NCBI RefSeq assembly: GCF_048771995.1
Contig: NC_133030.1
Coordinates: 63,189,501 to 63,253,500, forward strand
Length of the DNA: 64,000 nucleotides
Origin: Taeniopygia guttata
Taxonomy: Eukaryota > Chordata > Aves > Passeriformes > Estrildidae
Reading direction: 5' to 3'
Part shown: piece by piece, positions 23,601 to 63,440 of the stretch
Layout: each line of letters starts with the position of its first letter
How positions within the stretch are numbered: position 1 is the first letter of the stretch
Position numbers and translations under genes: made by a program
The notes under the pieces: generated by a model
Told to the model about the DNA's origin: nothing
Database searches by the model: none
Seen by the model: only the letters and a program-made list of their open reading frames with translations

Positions 23601-24506
23601 TGGAAGGGGCCGGGAGCGAACCGGCTCCGCCAGCCACACGGGCTCCGGGACGGAGGCGGCTGCGAGCGGGGCAGGAGGAGGAAAGGGCGGCGGGTCAAGG
23701 GGATCGGAGCGGCCCCGCCATCCCTTCAGCGCCATCCCCTCTGTGTTCTCTCCTCAGTGCTTTCCCCTCAGCGCCGTCTCCTCAGTGCTTTCTCCACAGC
23801 GCCATGCCATCACTGTTGTCCCCTCAGCGCCATGCCCTCAGTGCTGTCCCCTCAGTGCTTTCTCCTCAGCGCCATGCCATCAGTGTTGTCCCCTCAGCGC
23901 TTTCTCCTCAGCGCCATGCTATCAGTGCTGTCCCCTCAGCGCCATCCCCTCAGTGCCATCCCCTCAGTGCCGTCCCCTCAGTGCCATCCCCTCAGCGCTA
24001 TCCTCTTAGTGCCGTCCCCTCAGCACTATCCTCTCAGTGCCGTCCCCTCAGTGCCATGCCCTCAGTGCCATGCCCTCAGTGCCATCCCCTCAGTGCTTTC
24101 CCCTCAGCGCTGTCCTCTCGGCGCTGTCCTCTCAGTGCCGTCCCCTCAGCGCCATCCCCTCAGCGCTATCCCCTCAGTGCCATCCCCTCAGTGCTTTCCC
24201 CTCAGTGCCGTCCCCTCAGCGCCTCCCGCCGCCATTCGAACGGCGCGCGGCCGCCGCAGCCAATCAGCGCCCGCGCCACAGCCCCGGGCGCCCGCCGAGG
24301 GCTGAGGGCCGGCGGGGGAACCCCCCCTCCCCGCCCCGCTCCCCGCGCCCGCTCCCGCCGCTCCCGCCCCCGCCGCTCCTTCCCGGTTCCCCCGCCCGCC
24401 TTACCACATATCCTCCCCACACGTAGAGAAAGTTGCCGTCCACCACGGCGCAGTGGCCGCTGCGCTCCTCGGCCACGCCGAACTGATCCGCGGGGTCCGC
24501 CGCCAT
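5617..24506 (-). CDS. KLHDC1: KLHDC1, Kelch domain-containing protein 1 (complete, 13 coding exons)
   Basis: Coding exons on the minus strand, 5' to 3': 24506-24405, 21719-21649, 20637-20520, 19942-19824, 18413-18335, 17462-17379, 16586-16503, 12038-11980, 10356-10244, 9868-9796, 6971-6887, 6173-6121 and 5791-5617 (TGA at 5619-5617). All junctions are GT-AG with continuous frame. The protein is 404 aa (human about 406). Kelch blades carry Gly-Gly pairs at about 31-32, 87-88, 142-143, 215-216, 267-268 and 318-319, with RSWHTLTP and LWHTACLG motifs. Arg217, Arg222 and Ser251 align with the human KLHDC2 residues known to bind C-terminal Gly-Gly. Residues 344-353 (SLLRLCLDCI) fit the elongin BC-box SLxxxCxxxI exactly, and LPSKLLQ (367-373) follows like a cullin box. 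The family acts as a cullin-RING ligase receptor for C-terminal degrons. The ATG lies inside a YY1-like AAGATGGCGGC. A possible ATTAAA polyadenylation signal is at 4873-4868. Confidence 0.97.
6020..6115 (+). repeat. CR1 LINE 3' end in KLHDC1 intron 12 and exon margin
   Basis: GTAGTGGGAGGTGTCCCTGC, then GATTTAAGGTCCCTCCCAGC and AACCATCCTGGGATTCTG form the standard CR1 tail. It ends about 6 bp from the splice donor of KLHDC1 exon 12. Confidence 0.85.
6695..6840 (+). repeat. CR1 LINE 3' end in KLHDC1 intron 11
   Basis: GGAAGTGTCCATGGCCAAGC, AGCCTGGGATAGTGGGAGAC and AAACCATTCCATAATTTGAT mark the CR1 tail. It lies about 45 bp from exon 11. Confidence 0.85.
8515..8640 (+). repeat. CR1 LINE 3' end in KLHDC1 intron 10
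   Basis: GGCAGGGGTTGGACTGGAGG, ATCTCCAGAGGTCCCTTCCA and ACATTCTGTGACTTCCTG belong to an older CR1 subfamily tail. Confidence 0.8.
9150..9262. repeat. AT-rich low-complexity stretch in KLHDC1 intron 10
   Basis: Almost pure A+T with ATATTTATAAAATTGTTATA-like and AATAAAATAAT runs. The rest of the intron (6972-9795) shows nothing recognised beyond the CR1 copy at 8515. Confidence 0.8.
12039..16502 (-). other. KLHDC1 intron 7, 4.5 kb, no recognised gene
   Basis: Unique-looking sequence with no convincing exon. It contains a CAT/TCA trinucleotide run at about 14320-14352, read on the minus strand as an Asp-rich frame (14372-14145) that ends beside a GTAAGC donor-like site. Two stretches with many short open frames (12143-12560 and 13130-14080) show no family resemblance. 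Confidence 0.5.
16975..17305 (+). repeat. CR1 LINE fragment in KLHDC1 intron 6
   Basis: Carries the longer passerine-type CR1 3' region: GGGAATGTTCACCTGGAGAA, GAGAGCTGGAGAGGGACTGG, ACAGGACACAGGGAATGGCT and then GCCTGGGACAGTGGAAGGTG. It ends about 75 bp from KLHDC1 exon 6. The near-identical copy at 51780 shows it is a dispersed repeat. Confidence 0.88.
21050..21250 (+). repeat. Polypurine tract in KLHDC1 intron 2
   Basis: About 200 bp that is almost all G and A, with runs such as GGGGGGAAAAGGGG and GAGAGGAAGAGGAGAGG. Pyrimidines are rare. Such tracts can form triplexes or G-quadruplexes, but that is not shown here. Confidence 0.85.
23725..24225. repeat. 14-bp minisatellite in KLHDC1 intron 1, about 35 units
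   Basis: Near-perfect repeats of GCCATCCCCTCAGT, with variants GCTTTCCCCTCAGT and GCCGTCCCCTCAGC. It begins about 180 bp downstream of the first KLHDC1 splice donor. Because 14 is not a multiple of 3, every plus-strand frame is open, giving false ORFs of up to 402 codons. Confidence 0.95.
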
Positions 24507-24800
24507 CTTGGTGGGGGGGGAGGAAGAGGAGGAGGAGGAAGAGGAGGAGGAGGAGGAAGCGGCTCGGCCGCCTCAGGGCGCGCGTCCCACCACCGCCTCC
24601 TCCGGGTGAAGCTGCGGCTCCGCCGCCGGTCGCTCCCCTGGGGCGGACGGGAAGCGAGGAGGGTCCAAAGTGTGGGGCGGCACCTGGCGCGCGTGGCGGT
24701 GGGAGCGGACGGAGCCCGCGCTGCCCCCGGTGCCGGGCAGCAGTGCCGGGCTGAGGTGTGAGGCGGAATAAACCGTGCGGGAGGATGTGAATAATGCGGG
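24507..24800 (-). promoter_or_regulatory. KLHDC1 promoter and 5' UTR (CpG island)
   Basis: CpG-rich DNA surrounds the start codon and continues on both sides (about 24230-24740). On the transcribed strand the 41 bp before the ATG are almost entirely C and T (GGAGGA-type runs on the plus strand). The start codon itself sits in CCAAGATGGCGGCG, a YY1-type initiator element. The transcription start was not determined. Confidence 0.7.
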
Positions 24801-27309: not shown

Positions 27310-27975
27310 TTAAGTAGGAAAAGCCCTCTATGAAGGTGGAGTCTGCCAAGGCCGCCACTCCCGCACGTCCCCATATGCCACATCCACATGGTGTTTAAAT
27401 CCTTCCAAGGATGGGGACTCCACCACTGCTCTGGAAGCCTGTGCCAGGTCTGGACAACCCTTTCCATGGGGAAATTCCTGCTGATTCCACCCTGAGCCTG
27501 CCCTGGCCCGGCCTGAGGCCGTTCCCTCTGCTCCTGTCCCTGTTCCCTGGAGCAGAGCCCGACCCCCCGGCTGTCCCCTCCTGGCAGGAGCTGTGCAGAG
27601 CCACAAGGTCCCCCTGAGCCTCCTTTGCTCCAGGCTCAGCCCCTTCCCAGCTCCCTCAGGGATTCTCCAGCCCTTTCCCAGCTCCCTCAGGAACTCTCCA
27701 GCCCCTTCCCAGCTCCCTCAGGAATTCTCTAGCCCCTTCCCAGCTCCCTCACGGATTCTCCAGCCCCTTCCCAGCTCCCTCAGGGATTCTCCAGCCCCTT
27801 CCCAGCTCCCTCAGGGATTCTCCAGCCCCTTCCCAGCTCCCTCAGGAACTCTCCAGCCCTTCCCCAGCTCCCTCAGGAACTCTCCAGCCCCTTCCCAGCT
27901 CTTTCACGGATTCTGCAGCCCCTTCCAGCTCCATTCTCTGCCCTGGACACGCTCCAGCCCCTCCATGTCTCCTGT
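27310..27975 (-). repeat. Reversed CR1 LINE with an internal 31-bp tandem amplification
   Basis: Outer parts are a recognisable reversed CR1: GGGACTCCACCACTGCTCTG, GGCCTGAGGCCGTTCCCTCT, AGCTGTGCAGAGCCACAAGG at one side and CTGGACACGCTCCAGCCCC at the other. Between them, at about 27645-27935, a 31-bp segment (CAGCTCCCTCAGGGATTCTC plus CAGCCCCTTCC) is repeated about nine times. A typical CR1 has this CCAGCTCCCTCAG motif only once or twice. The copy ends about 50 bp before the POLE2 CpG island. Confidence 0.85.
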
Positions 27976-44219: not shown

Positions 44220-44800
44220 TGTTATAAATACAAATTATAATACTGGCTTTTCACAAATACTAAAAGAATTGGGTTCTATATGTATAATGTTAAATTAACT
44301 TTGCTATGCAGTTTTAATTTCTGCTATTAACTAAATTAAGACATAGTAGTGAAATGGCTGATATAGTTATGCTTGTGATAATTAAACTACTTAGTTGGGA
44401 TAACACCCAATGAACTTATCATGACCCAATGAACTTATGATGAAGACCCCTACTACTATCAACACCTCCTGTCTGTAAAAAGTATAGACTGAGGTGATGA
44501 TGAGAATGGACTAAAACCACAGGCAAGAAATGTGCATGCTCTAAAAAGGTGGACCCAATGCTAAACAGTTCTTAGAACATGTAAACTAGTTTGGGGAGAA
44601 ATTTAAATATACATAATTGTTTGTGAATATGCAGTAGGCTGATGCAATAGAAAAGTTATATAAAGGCTGTCTCTGAAATAGCAGGTGTGCTCTTGGCTGA
44701 ATGCCAAGCACCCAGCTGTTACCTTTGCTTTATTTTTGTATCCTACTGTCCTTTATTAAACTTTTAAATTTTACCGGGAAAGTGAACCTCGTTTTTCACA
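44220..44800 (+). mobile_element. Solo LTR fossil upstream of DNAAF2
   Basis: 581 bp beginning TGTTATAAATAC and ending GTTTTTCACA, flanked by a perfect 4-bp duplication GCAG (44216-44219 and 44801-44804). It contains TATATAAA at 44657-44664 and ATTAAA at 44755-44760, in the order expected for U3, R and U5. The 4-bp duplication points to a class I endogenous retrovirus. No internal genes remain, so it is a solo LTR fossil. It lies about 260 bp from the X-box array and 446 bp from the DNAAF2 ATG. Confidence 0.85.
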
Positions 44801-45061
44801 GCAGGAAGGAGGAGGCACAGTGGGATACGGGCTCTGAGGGAAGCTGGGTCTGTTGAGGATTTACAAGTGCCCTGTGAGGGGATGGCAGTGGAGTTCAGAG
44901 TATGGCATGGGGAGGGAACACACACTTTGCTGAAGGATGAAGAGATGACGGTGGAAAACCAGCCCTGCTGATGCTGGCTGGAAGCCACCGAGGGGAGGGA
45001 AAAGGCGAGGCCGGGACGGAGAAGTCTCGGCCCTGAGGGACAGCCCGCCATGTCGTTTGCC

Positions 45062-45195
45062 GTCTCCATGGCAACCGCTGCGCCGCCGCCATATTGCTTA
45101 CCATCACCATAGCAACCGCCGCCATCTTGTTTACCATCACCACAGCAACCGCCGCCATCTTGTTTACCGTCACCACAGCAACCGCCGCCATCTTG
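45062..45195 (+). promoter_or_regulatory. DNAAF2 promoter array: four X-box-like (RFX) and four YY1-like motifs
   Basis: GTCTCCATGGCAAC at 45062-45075 matches the X-box consensus GTYNCCATRGNAAC perfectly. Near-matches follow at 45103-45116 (one mismatch), 45136-45149 (two) and 45169-45182 (one), the last three spaced exactly 33 bp. Each is paired with GCCGCCATCTTG, a reverse YY1 motif, at 45118, 45151 and 45184, plus a variant at 45084. RFX factors drive motile-cilia genes, which fits DNAAF2. An upstream ATG at 45050 would give a 20-codon uORF if transcribed. Confidence 0.8.
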
Positions 45196-45246
45196 CTCGG
45201 CGTCCCCACAGCAGCGCTCCCGGCCGAGCCGAGCCGTGCCGGGGCC

Positions 45247-48200
45247 ATGGCGGGCGCGGGGCGGCTGCAGGACCTGGACCTCAGCGCCGAGGAGGCGGAG
45301 CGGCTCAAGCGCGCCTTCCGCGACGAGCAATTCCGCGCGCTGTTCGCGGAGTACGCGGCCGAGCTCACCGACCCCGAGCAGCGCCGGCTGTACGAGGAGG
45401 AGGTGGCGGCGCTGGAGCGGGAGCGCGGCATGGAGGTGCGCTTCGTGCACCCGACTCCGGGCTTCGTGCTGCGGACCAGCCAGGACGGCTCTCGCCGCTG
45501 CTACATCAACGTCTGCAGCAACGCGCTGATGGGCGAGCCGCGGGCCCGCGCCGAGCGCGGCGGGCAGCGCTGGGAGCTGCCCTACAGCCTGGCCCCGGGC
45601 CGCGAGGAGCTGCGCCCCGGCGGCCGCCGCCGCCTCCTGTACGACGTGGTGTTCCACCCCGCCGCGCTGCGCCTGGCCGCCCGCAGCGCCCGCTTCCGCC
45701 GCCTGCTTCGCGACACGGCGCTGGAGGCCGTGGAGAGCCGCTGCGGGGTGCGGCTGGATCGCAACAACGCCACGGTCCTGCGAGGGGTCTCCTACAAGGG
45801 CGTCCCGCAGGCGCCCGTCATCCGCTCCCCGCTGCCCGGCGGCGCCCCGAAGCCGCCCGACGACGGCGAGTCCCCGCTGCCGCCCTTCCCCTTCCCCTTC
45901 CCCTCCCCGCCCGCCGCCGCCCCGCCGCCCGCCGCCGGCTCCTCGCCCGCCGCTCCCCCGCCGCCCTCCGGCCCCACCACGCCGCGCTGGAGCATCCGCC
46001 ACCGCTCCTACGTGGACCTGCAGGACTACCGGCACAGCCGCGACTCCGCGCCCAGCCCGGTGCCGCGGGAGCTGGTGGTGACGGTGGAGCTGCCGCTGCT
46101 GCGCTCCGCCGAGCAGGCGGAGCTGGAGATCCGCGGGCGGGAGCTGCGGCTGGACTCGCGGTGTCCCGCCTACCGCCTGCGCCTCCGCCTCCCCTACGAC
46201 GTGGACGAGAGCGGCGGGCGGGCTGCTTTTAACCGGGCCCAGCGGCAGCTGCAGGTCACGCTGCCCGTGGTGCTGCCGCCGGGCCCGTCCGGGGAGCGGC
46301 TGGAGGGGGCCGAGCCCGCTGCCGCGGGGCTGGCACGGGCAGGGCCGGCGGAGGCGGGCGGCGGAGCGGCTCCTCCCCCGGAACTCGGGCCTGGCGGCGC
46401 GGCCCGCAGCACGTGTGGCGGCGGGGAGCCCGGTGATCCACTCGCCGAACCCCCCGCTGACCCTCTTGGTGATCCTCCCGCTGGTCCGGCTGCCGAGCCC
46501 CTCGCTGAACCACCCGCGGAACCGCCCGTAGAACCACTCTGTGATGCACCCGCTGAACCCCACGTTTATCCAACCTCTGAACCCTTTGCTGACTCCCCTC
46601 CTGAACCCCCCGTTTATCCAACCTCTGAACCCTTTGCTGACTCCCCTCCTGAACCCCCAGCTGAACCGGCCACTGATCCAAGCTCTGAACCCTTTGCTGA
46701 ACCTGCCACTGATCCAACCTCTGAACCTGCCACTGATCCAGGCTGTGAACCCTTTGCTGAACTGACCACTGATCCAACCTCTGAACCGGCCACTGATCTA
46801 AACTCTGAATGCCCTGCTGAACTGGCCACTGATCCAAGCTCTGAACGCTTTGCTGACTCCCCTCCTGAACCTCCTGCTGAACCTGCCACTGATCCAGGCT
46901 CTGAACCCTTTGCTGAACCGACCACGGATCCAACCTCTGAACCGGCCACTGATCCAAGCTCTGAACCCTTTGCTGAATTTGCCACTGATCCAACCTCTGA
47001 ACCTGCCACTGATCCAGGCTCTGAACCCTTTGCTGAACCGACCACGGATCCAACCTCTGAACCGGCCACTGATCCAAGCTCTGAACCCCCCGCTGGTCCA
47101 ACCACGGACCCCTGCTCTGAACCTTTCACCGAACCCCCCGCCACTGATCCACCCGCAGAACCAGAACCACCCACCGAGCCCCCGGAGCCAGCACTGCCCT
47201 GCTCCGGTGCCGCTTCCCCCATCGCCAGCCCCGATCCAGCCATGCCCACCGGGGACACCCCTCTGCAGGCCTCTGAGGGCCACCCCAGCGAGGTGGCCAC
47301 ATGCCCTCCCTTCCGTGCCCGGCAGGACGAGGCATCCCTCACTCTGCTCCTGCTGGTGCCCGGCATCCAGCCCCGGAGCCTCCGTGGGGACGTGGGCACA
47401 CACCACTACAGCCTCCGCTTCCGCACCGCCAGCGCGGCCTTCGCCCTGTTCCTGCGCTTCCCGGCCGCGCTGCTGCGCCCCGAGAGCAGCGTCAGCGTCT
47501 CTGCTCACAACGCCGTGGTGGGGCTCGCCAAGGCCCCCGGCAGCACCGGCCTCTGGGACAAGTTCAGCTTCGGCCTCCACCCCTCCGCTCTGCAGGTAAC
47601 GTGGCACGCTGGTGGCACACCCGGGGTGTCACCTGCCCGAGGTGCCCTGCTGGGTGTGGCTGCTGGTTGCTGAATGGTGAGTGAGCACCCTGAGTGGTGG
47701 CTCAGGGAGGTGTGAGGAGCAGTTGGAAGTTGCTGCTTCCTCGGAGAGCTGCTCCCGGATGGCAGTGCCATGACCTGATTTGTGCGAGTCTTGTATGAGC
47801 AGCGCCAAGGTCACGCCATGGAGCTGACACCTTCATCCTTGGAATTGGAATGACTTCTGCTACCCTTGCGAATTTTTTTTTCTAAGGGAAATTCTGGTGA
47901 TGAATGAAAACAGTAGCTATGTCCTCTATGTCCTTAGTGCTCACTTTTAAAGCCCTGTGAAGTGCAGCCCGTTCACACAAAGAAAGCTCTTTATGATACA
48001 CCAGGCTTTTACACACGTGTGCATACACTGTCATGAAGTGCAGGGGGAGTGTCCCTGTCTCTGTGTTTTGGGACAGAATTCCCATTTACAGCCACAGCAA
48101 CCCCCATCAGTTCAACCAGAGCAGAACAGCAAGCAGCAGCTGTGAACTGTCCTGCTTTGCTGGGGTAAAGATTCACCTGCTCTGTCTGAATATGATTCTA

Positions 48201-61137: not shown

Positions 61138-62463
61138 TCACTGGAGTCTGCGGTAGCTCTTACAGAGTTCGTGGTCCCTGATGTCTCCCCACCCTCCGTT
61201 CTTGACGTGAGGGGACAGGGGAGCCATGGAGTACCTTTTACTGATGCTCATCGCCTCGGGAAACAGGTACTGTTGGTTGCTGTTCAAGAGAGAATCGATT
61301 TTGGCACTCTGGGTGGACGGTCTGCAGGATTTCTTGTGGTGCATGCCACAGTCCCCCGTGTGAAAAATCCTGGGGATTTCGGGAACCAGCACTTTCCAGA
61401 ACTTTGGAAGACAAGAGACAGTCAAGTGCTGCAGAGTCCAGTCCCAGTTGTAGTCATCGTAGGTGCAGAAGGCGTCCGTGCACTCGATGAGCTTCTGGTA
61501 GGTGTCTCTGCCGAAGGCCATGCCCATGTTGTGCTCCGTGGACTTCCACGTCTTCATCTCCACCTTGTCGGCGCGGCCGGCAAAGCCGCCCCGCACGGGG
61601 CTGTAGGTGCCCAGCGAGACGAGCTGGCACTCGGGGCAGTCGCGCCGGCGCAGCGCCCAGAGCTGCTTGAGGACGTGGTAGAAGTCGGGCGCCAGGTAAT
61701 GGTCCTCCTCGAGGAAGAGCACGGGCCCCGCGTGCTCCCGCAGCGCCCGCACGCGCTCCCACACGAAGTGCAGCTTCCACCACCAGTGGTGCTTGGTCTG
61801 CGCGAAGCGCGCCTCGCGGTAGTGCCCGAACGAGTCGGGGAACTCGGCGTTGATGCAGCCCAGCCGCAGCGCCGCCGCCTTGCCCACGTCGCGGGGGCAG
61901 TCGCGGGGGTCGTGGCCCGGGAACTCGCGCGGGTACAGCTGGATGCTGAACGGGAAGAACACCTGCAGCACCGGGCAGAAGTCCACGCGGGCCGCCAGCC
62001 GGTTCAGCTCCTCGGCCCACAGGTCGTGGCTCAGCACCAGCAGCACGTTCTCCACGCCCGCCGCCCGCCGCAGCGACTCGAGCAGCAGCCGCAGGTGCTC
62101 GGCGCGGTCGTGCACCTGCACCACGAGCACCACGTCGGGCCGCGCCGGGAAGCGCGCGGCGTTCCGCACCGGCTGGTCGAAGTTCAGCCGGTACACGAGC
62201 GAGCGGTAACTCAGCGTCGCGTTCTCCGACAGCACCTCCGCCGCCACGCCGGCCGACGCGTTGGCGGCGGGGCGGCGCGCTACCGGCGGCGGGGGCTCGC
62301 TGACCCGCGGCGGCTCCCCGGTGCTACCGGGACCGCCCCGCTGCTGCTGCTGCTGCTGCTGCCGCCGCCGCCCGCCGCCGCCGGTGCCCCAGAGCGCCAG
62401 GGCGCAGAGCGCCAGCGCCAGCGCCAGCAGCAGCACCTTGCGCTTGTAGACGCGCAGCCGCAT
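61138..62463 (-). CDS. MGAT2: MGAT2, alpha-1,6-mannosyl-glycoprotein 2-beta-N-acetylglucosaminyltransferase
   Basis: A single intronless coding exon encodes 441 aa (human 447). The enzyme adds GlcNAc in beta-1,2 linkage to the alpha-1,6 mannose arm of N-glycans, committing them to the complex type in the Golgi. It is a type II membrane protein: cytosolic MRLRVYKRK, a membrane segment at about 10-25, a stem, then the catalytic domain from about 85. The stem has a seven-Gln run (35-41) and two sequons, N68 and N81. The metal-binding EED is at 252-254 in FLEEDHYLAPDFYH. Strongly conserved blocks include KHHWWWKLHFVWERV, YDDYNWDWTLQ, CGMHHKKSCRPSTQSA and the C-terminal GGWGDIRDHELCKSYRRLQ. The start matches human MRFRIYKRKVL. 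An open frame continues upstream without conservation. CpG-rich coding DNA also leaves a 557-codon antisense frame open, which is not a gene. Confidence 0.98.
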   Translation of the reverse strand: MRLRVYKRKVLLLALALALCALALWGTGGGGRRRQQQQQQQRGGPGSTGEPPRVSEPPPPVARRPAANASAGVAAEVLSENATLSYRSLVYRLNFDQPVRNAARFPARPDVVLVVQVHDRAEHLRLLLESLRRAAGVENVLLVLSHDLWAEELNRLAARVDFCPVLQVFFPFSIQLYPREFPGHDPRDCPRDVGKAAALRLGCINAEFPDSFGHYREARFAQTKHHWWWKLHFVWERVRALREHAGPVLFLEEDHYLAPDFYHVLKQLWALRRRDCPECQLVSLGTYSPVRGGFAGRADKVEMKTWKSTEHNMGMAFGRDTYQKLIECTDAFCTYDDYNWDWTLQHLTVSCLPKFWKVLVPEIPRIFHTGDCGMHHKKSCRPSTQSAKIDSLLNSNQQYLFPEAMSISKRYSMAPLSPHVKNGGWGDIRDHELCKSYRRLQ

Positions 62464-62760
62464 GGTCCCGGCGGCGGCGGCCCCGCTCCGCCGCTCCCGC
62501 CGCCGCCGCCGCCGCCGCTCCCGCTCCCAGCGCGCGCGCGCCGCCGCCGCCCCGCGCGCACACGTCGCCGCTCCCCATTGGCCGCCGCTGCGCCGACCGC
62601 GGCGCCGCCATTGGTCGGAGGAGCCGTCAATCAACTCCTCGGCGCTTCCGCCGCGCCGGGAGGCCGCGCAGCCGCCGCCGCCGCACCGCGCTCTGATTGG
62701 GCGGCGCCCGGAGGGGGCGGGGCCAAGGCCTGAAGGGGAGGGCGGGAAGCGGCGGCCAAA
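62464..62760 (-). promoter_or_regulatory. MGAT2 promoter, CpG island with three CCAAT boxes
   Basis: ATTGG on the plus strand (CCAAT on the MGAT2 strand) occurs at 62577-62581, 62610-62614 and 62696-62700. A GC box, GGGGGCGGGGCC, follows at about 62713. Spacing of NF-Y-type sites with a GC box and no TATA suits a housekeeping promoter. Confidence 0.75.
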
Positions 62761-62869
62761 TCCTTCGGGATTGGGGAAAAAAAGGGAAAATAACCCTGGA
62801 AATGCAAGGAAAACACACGGAAACCCGCCGGGATCCGCGCGAGTAACATAAAAAAAAAATGAGTGAATG

Positions 62870-63440
62870 CTAGGTTTGAAAAACAGCACGTTAAAAAGCA
62901 TCCTGCAATGACAAGAATAAGGTGAGAAATCATTCTAGAAATGCAGGAATAAGGTGAAATTATTATACGATTGGAAAAGAAAATAATTCTAAGATGGAAA
63001 AAAAAGAAATTCTAAGATTGAGAGAATAAAATAATTCTAGATTTGGATGATCAGGATTATGAACCCGTTCTTGAATTGTAAGAATTTAAAACATCAGATT
63101 AATTAATTCTAGAATAGCAAGTATAAAATTACTCCAAAGTTTTCAACATTAAGGTAAGAGTAAAATAATTCCAGAATTGCAAGAACAAGATAAGAAAACC
63201 ATCCTAGATCCCTGCAGGGATCTGTGGCAAAGCCCCATTTCCGTGAAGAAATTTTCCCAATATCCAAACTAAACCTTCCCCAGCTGGCACTCAGTGCCAC
63301 CTCCATGTGCTCCAAGCCATCACATGTTCCAGGGAATGGGATTCTTAAAATAAAATAATTCTAGATTTCAAAAATTAGGATTATGAACCTATATATAAGA
63401 ATTAAAAAATCAGATTAATTCTAGAATCGCAGCTATTTGT
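62870..63440. repeat. Degenerate AT-rich tandem repeat, unit about 25-35 bp
   Basis: Recurring cores read AATAAGGTGAGAAATCATTC, AGAATAAAATAATTCTAGAT, AATAGCAAGTATAAAAT and AAAATAATTCCAGAATTGC. The motif (A)TAATTCTAGAATTGCAAGAA drifts across the array. It lies behind the MGAT2 promoter. Confidence 0.7.

Follow-up and report, generated by a model that had tools for sequence, protein, structure and literature searches.

Tandem repetition of a promoter module with predicted RFX, FOX and YY1 sites upstream of a DNAAF2-like gene, and similar arrays at other gene starts, in the zebra finch genome

Homotypic clusters are short stretches of DNA that carry several copies of the sites for the same factor, with the individual sites scattered and independent of one another. 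Related arrangements have been described at particular promoters, and the comparisons drawn here are limited to the available portions of the cited texts. X-boxes together with FOX motifs mark the genes for motile-cilia assembly, in which second X-boxes are more degenerate, in their 5′ halves (PMC4168999). One of these, the gene for the dynein assembly factor HEATR2/DNAAF5, has more than one X-box near its start and a generic FOX core nearby; promoters of this type carry one or two X-boxes at variable distance (PMC4168999). A study in Xenopus reports that RFX2 stabilises FOXJ1 at the promoters of multiciliated-cell genes; it also finds forkhead motifs to be scarcer at promoters bound by FOXJ1 than at distal sites (PMC5245798). 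The MNS16A array at human TERT is a promoter minisatellite whose unit carries factor sites; people differ in the number of its copies, and higher activity was seen with the shorter alleles (PMC5438627). Finally, the TISU element is a 12-base sequence at which YY1 binding was observed, and it acts in one orientation (sense) and from a position immediately 3′ of the start site, in mRNAs whose 5′ untranslated regions are very short (PMC2518114). Among the abstract openings available in the open-access literature we found no paper on tandem arrays that combine RFX and YY1 sites, and the accessible parts of PMC9974502 and PMC5838959 hold nothing on them.

The DNA analysed here (the window) is a stretch of 64,000 nucleotides from Taeniopygia guttata; it lies on a contig of 65.0 Mb and stops 1.8 Mb short of the contig's end. 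Within it, five head-to-tail units of 33, 41, 33, 33 and 33 bp were delimited from the sequence and a unit split (Table 1), the last of which stops 31 bp short of the ATG of a DNAAF2-like open frame. Tandem Repeats Finder (TRF) delimits an array of 33-bp period and 93% matches at 45083-45197. As in a promoter minisatellite (VNTR), the tandem units are of minisatellite length and lie in a promoter. The original prediction placed three near-X-boxes at exact 33-bp spacing behind a first, perfect X-box. That repeat is real and above chance, and its last three gaps are indeed 33 bp; however, the units number five, and 8 extra bases in unit 2 widen the first gap to 41 bp. The closest resemblance is between units 3 and 4, with 32 of 33 positions identical. 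The start of the array is also the start of CpG-rich DNA (observed/expected CpG of 1.04 at 45000-45246 vs 0.21 at 44500-45000).

Table 1. Positions in the window of the array, its units, the motifs recognised in them and the downstream frame.
Feature	Position	Strand	Basis or remark
Whole array, five units	45043..45215	+	sequence, unit split, TRF
Unit 1	45043-45075	+	unit split
Unit 2, with 8 extra bases	45076-45116	+	unit split
Unit 3	45117-45149	+	unit split
Unit 4	45150-45182	+	unit split
Unit 5	45183-45215	+	unit split
X-box, unit 1, GTCTCCATGGCAAC	45062..45075	+	fits RYYNYYN2RRNRAC
X-box, unit 2, ATCACCATAGCAAC	45103..45116	+	fits consensus
X-box, unit 3, ATCACCACAGCAAC	45136..45149	+	fits consensus
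X-box, unit 4, GTCACCACAGCAAC	45169..45182	+	fits consensus; only unit matching the stricter GTNRCCN(0-3)RGYAAC
Decayed X-box, unit 5, GTCCCCACAGCAGC	45202..45215	+	fails consensus on +; loose pattern on - only
YY1-type site, unit 2 (+ strand GCCGCCATATTG)	45085..45096	-	fits GCCGCCATNTTG
YY1-type site, unit 3 (+ strand GCCGCCATCTTG; CAAGATGGCGGC on - strand)	45118..45129	-	motif match
YY1-type site, unit 4 (+ strand GCCGCCATCTTG)	45151..45162	-	motif match
YY1-type site, unit 5 (+ strand GCCGCCATCTTG)	45184..45195	-	motif match
Forkhead core, unit 3 (+ TGTTTAC, - GTAAACA)	45128..45134	-	fits RYMAAYA
Forkhead core, unit 4, laid out as in unit 3	45161..45167	-	fits RYMAAYA
DNAAF2-like open frame, 808 aa, at least first exon	45247..47673	+	PIH1, PIH1_CS domains

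The frame downstream of the array encodes PIH1 (E 3.3e-46) and PIH1_CS (E 3.3e-31) domains, and MGAT2 lies in the same window on the minus strand (61141-62934). From these domains and the synteny with MGAT2 we take the gene to be DNAAF2, which makes the array's neighbour a motile-cilia gene. A weak KLHDC2-type kelch match at 1406-2002, below the curated cut-off, is in keeping with this assignment. The C-terminal part of the DNAAF2-like frame contains a long in-frame repeat of its own (46531-47124), with units of 12, 24 and 60 bp that are rich in Pro, Glu, Thr, Ser and Asp. Matches of the protein to PDB entries fall within this repeat part, and seven of the eight are to circumsporozoite proteins; we consider them low-complexity artefacts.

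The X-box is also written in a stricter palindromic form, GTNRCCN(0-3)RGYAAC. With the published consensus RYYNYYN(1-3)RRNRAC (PMC4168999, available text), an X-box is recognised on the plus strand in four of the five units, so that the extra copies do not, by consensus, fall below the threshold for an RFX site, as the original prediction had allowed that they might. The X-box of unit 1, which had been called perfect, fits this consensus but fails the stricter form, matched by one unit in five. YY1-type sites that fit GCCGCCATNTTG or its complement are likewise present in four units. The exact sequence GCCGCCATCTTG, said to accompany each near-X-box, does so in units 3, 4 and 5, whereas unit 2 has a variant. 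Decay at both ends of the array was correctly anticipated: the YY1 part of unit 1 has become CCCGCCATGTCG, and the X-box of unit 5 has lost its fit. With four X-boxes and four YY1 sites within 173 bp, the array has the density of a homotypic cluster (at least three copies of one site close together).

A forkhead part of the module is newly noticed here. The generic FOX core RYMAAYA, a consensus taken from PMC4168999, occurs in two of the five units (3 and 4), where it overlaps the YY1 site by 2 bases and lies 1 base from the X-box; a generic FOX core near an X-box is also a feature of motile-cilia promoters. By its motifs, the repeated module is thus a predicted YY1-FOX-RFX unit. The stringent FOXJ1 sites WDTGTTTGTTTA and KTTTGTTGTTKTW (PMC4168999) are both absent from 45043-45215 on either strand.

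Repetition of these motifs greatly exceeds chance. The X-box half-site CCAYRGCAAC occurs four times in 45000-45246 vs a mean of 0.006 in dinucleotide shuffles of this interval, and the 12-mer SAASATGGCGGC three times vs a mean of 0.002; none of 500 shuffles reached either count. When prokaryote genomes were tried as a chance baseline, the 18-mer GCAACCGCCGCCATCTTG was found in 48 stretches, none of which had more than one copy. The units, their motifs and the shuffles together uphold the proposal that tandem duplication of a composite RFX+YY1 element took place upstream of the DNAAF2-like gene. Origin as a dispersed repeat or transposon was rejected, since 144 bases of the array, used as a query, found no second place in the genome (in a search that skips common words). 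Single-strand structure was ruled out as a cause of the array (z 0.60), and no known RNA family reached its gathering score within the window.

The array therefore combines features that the described systems display separately. In contrast to promoters of the HEATR2/DNAAF5 type, it has five near-regular units, each with a YY1 site or its remnant, and a FOX core 1 base from the X-box in two of them. It resembles MNS16A in being a promoter minisatellite with factor sites in its unit, although the unit here is a multi-factor module. Like a homotypic cluster it repeats the same sites over a short stretch, but its copies arose recently, by tandem duplication of a composite module. With TISU it shares the 12-base sequence, but the copies are repeated, upstream of the ATG and reversed. 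Forkhead cores beside X-boxes at a promoter would, if bound, be unusual, because promoters bound by FOXJ1 are poor in such motifs.

Arrays of the same kind occur elsewhere in this genome. The pattern GCAACN{0,20}GCCGCCATNTTG has 32 matches, of which four are in the DNAAF2 array, 12 on contig C37, five on C38 and 11 at loci with a single match. The C37 array (L032 5071-6520; G000 C37:1341000-1350999) comprises 39.9 copies according to TRF, or 41 units by a motif-anchored count, and its last unit ends approximately 90 bp before the ATG of a presumably ABHD16A-like gene (Pfam ABHD16_N, E 0.035, below its cut-off). As in the DNAAF2 array, an X-box is directly followed by a YY1 site in the same orientation, in tandem and upstream of a start codon; unlike it, the C37 array has a 36-bp unit made of the spacer TCCCGCCC, X-box and YY1 site, and lacks a forkhead core. 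The X-box fits its consensus in 37 of the 41 units, the YY1 12-mer in 33, and both in 30. This array also carries a CCCGCCC box, and some of its units are of a 29-bp type with GTTATCATGACAAC. The gap between X-box and YY1 site is 0-1 bp in three arrays and 2-18 bp at the 11 single-match loci, and we therefore claim no fixed spacing.

A METTL3-like gene on C38, two exons of which encode an MT-A70 domain, has YY1-rich arrays upstream. A 16-bp tandem repeat of about 72 copies with the YY1-like consensus CCGCCATCTTGAAACC is located a few kb from a METTL3-like exon (L035 206-1348; G000 C38:281000-290999). A separate CpG-rich region (L048 3917-5152; G000 C38:808500-818499) has twelve YY1-type sites, some with an NRF1-like GCGCATGCGC between them. 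Further arrays are found on C6, C18 and C20. Four arrays beyond those on C37 and C38 were read: an X-box array before a RAB6-like gene, an ETS plus X-box array before a KAT8-like gene, a YY1 plus SP1-like box array before an ARMC7-like gene, and another YY1 array near a further gene. The RAB6-, KAT8- and ARMC7-like names are our assignments from N-terminal sequences. Tandem YY1 sites were present in three of 12 other loci (L042, L046 and L048), and seven arrays were examined closely. To our knowledge, none of the ABHD16A-, METTL3-, RAB6-, KAT8- or ARMC7-like genes is a motile-cilia gene. A multi-factor promoter module is thus repeated in tandem both here and at several other gene starts, and its amplification is not cilia-specific, because similar arrays precede genes unrelated to cilia. 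The suggestion that the cilia gene explains the amplification consequently does not hold, and genome-wide counts, in which tandem X-box or YY1 pairs are common, point the same way.

Across the 1.14 Gb genome, the X-box half-site CCATRGCAAC occurs 7080 times and forms 682 tandem pairs with periods of 20-50 (9.6 per 100 sites), whereas a dinucleotide-preserving scramble, which we regard as the fair control, occurs 3672 times and forms 14 pairs at 5 loci (0.38 per 100). The pair counts are inflated by long arrays and by one dispersed 41-bp family, so the excess is smaller at the level of loci: the 100 of 682 pairs that were listed represent 30 loci, nine of which belong to that family, leaving 21 vs five genome-wide for a scramble with approximately half the sites. 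This 41-bp minisatellite family, dispersed on C27, C31 and C32 (e.g. C27:4312221-4312459), carries X-box-like sites on both strands. The YY1 pattern GCCGCCATNTTG occurs 1473 times with 171 tandem pairs (11.6 per 100); its scramble has no site within 50 bp of another, and with only 84 sites is a weak control. Among 100 of the 171 YY1 pairs listed there are 37 loci, 16 of them with at least two pairs, and 41 of the first 100 of the 1473 YY1 sites listed fall in one subtelomeric stretch of C1. Reversed patterns make an unfair control, because reversal adds CpGs and leaves few sites (188 vs 7080 for the X-box and 12 vs 1473 for YY1).

Other motifs were counted in the same way. NRF1 pairs occur at 84 places, and 49 of the 50 listed look like one subtelomeric repeat. 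The ends of C1, C2, C4 and C5 have a repeat every ~7 kb that carries paired NRF1-like sites, and at the end of C1 YY1-type 12-mers recur in the stretch with this repeat. ETS pairs number 46 vs 35 for the reversed control, with 27 of the 46 in two repeats on C40 and C41. A few ETS arrays do exist, and hence YY1 and RFX are not the sole amplified motifs.

We favour, with a probability of roughly 0.55, the interpretation that the gene's own promoter module has been amplified in tandem to yield a five-unit promoter minisatellite that acts as a homotypic RFX/FOX/YY1 cluster. A less likely view is that one functional module was copied by slippage or unequal exchange, and that the extra copies neither help nor harm. 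Other minisatellites near gene starts in the window, such as those with 14-bp units (23717-24227) and 31-bp units (27637-27932), have units in which no known factor site is recognised, so the birth of an array needs no function; the arrays before unrelated genes and the decayed end units are also as expected of neutral copies. Against neutrality, when the units are aligned without the 8 extra bases, variable columns make up 3/12 of the YY1 site and 5/14 of the X-box vs 5/7 of the spacer, a difference that is suggestive, with only five units. In the C37 array, common variants were found for six of seven consensus-permitted changes vs none of seven non-permitted ones (Fisher p 0.0047), but all seven permitted variants are transitions (two of seven among the others), and with this confounding selection is not demonstrated.

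Two other possibilities concern the YY1-type sites. The array might be a YY1 cluster whose role is to set either the start site or a chromatin loop, with the X-boxes merely carried along, a proposal we regard as improbable. It would account for the recurrence of YY1-type arrays with quite different spacers among the 171 tandem pairs, and for arrays without X-boxes, such as the 48-bp YY1 units on C20. However, X-box arrays without YY1 are also common, consensus-fitting X-boxes here equal the YY1 sites in number, and RFX control is to be expected of the downstream gene, since it belongs to the motile-cilia genes. It is far less probable still that the three copies of CAAGATGGCGGC are TISU elements, marking the start of a divergent transcript from the minus strand, and that the repeat encodes a protein repeat. 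On the minus strand the 12-mer is read three times, and an open frame of 178 aa on that strand (44895-45431) crosses units 2-5 with the 11-residue repeat MAAVAVVTVNK, which arises because 33 bp equal 11 codons. Both motif and frame, however, are simple consequences of the repetition, unit 1 is thrown out of the frame by the 8 extra bases, and TISU is confined to one orientation and to a position immediately 3′ of a start site. Relative to DNAAF2, the three copies are on the opposite strand. Elsewhere in the window, a single CAAGATGGCGGC (24499-24510, minus strand) at the apparent start codon of what is presumably a KLHDC1-like gene has the textbook TISU arrangement and offers a single-copy contrast to the array.

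If the array is an amplified promoter module, each unit would be a copy of one module with a YY1 site and an X-box, plus a forkhead core in the two best-kept units. We infer that this genome has a tendency to duplicate promoter modules in tandem, for which break repair at promoters in CpG islands may be responsible, and that the need of a cilia gene did not drive the process. RFX2 or RFX3 would then occupy the predicted X-boxes, FOXJ1 would be held at the adjacent predicted forkhead cores with the help of RFX, and YY1 would support the core promoter through its predicted sites. The candidate cluster would thereby raise or steady DNAAF2 transcription in ciliated cells, and judged from its motifs the array probably does work as a homotypic RFX/FOX/YY1 cluster. 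The absence of stringent FOXJ1 sites from the array speaks against this model, and the FOX cores may be idle, given the depletion of forkhead motifs at promoters bound by FOXJ1.

The more interesting lead is a wider, putative class of promoter-module minisatellites, for which the basis is a single genome, matches to consensus motifs and one control that is fair. Birds lack PRDM9, and in the zebra finch recombination is enriched at CpG islands, with a mean non-crossover tract of ~32 bp; after correction for CpG islands, start sites show no additional enrichment, which tells against the break-repair step (PMC12047795, available portions). The likeness of this tract to the 33-bp unit may be coincidence. 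In many birds, recombination rates also climb toward chromosome ends (PMC10781513, available portions). It is conceivable, though we hold this tentatively, that in a bird genome without PRDM9 meiotic breaks at CpG-island promoters repeatedly amplify entire transcription-factor modules as tandem copies, above all those with X-box and YY1 sites, and that ordinary genes thereby evolve their regulatory dosage through changes in the number of units. Within such a class, the DNAAF2 array could be a small instance and the 41-unit C37 array an extreme one.

If arrays follow CpG-island recombination, the loss of PRDM9 would be linked to a rapid turnover in how promoters are built, and existing bird recombination maps could be used to address this. 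One genome also supplies a natural series of promoters with one to ~41 copies of the RFX/YY1 module, in which copy number could be related directly to expression. In the case of DNAAF2, the immediate neighbourhood of forkhead cores and X-boxes in a promoter would provide a test of cooperation between FOXJ1 and RFX.
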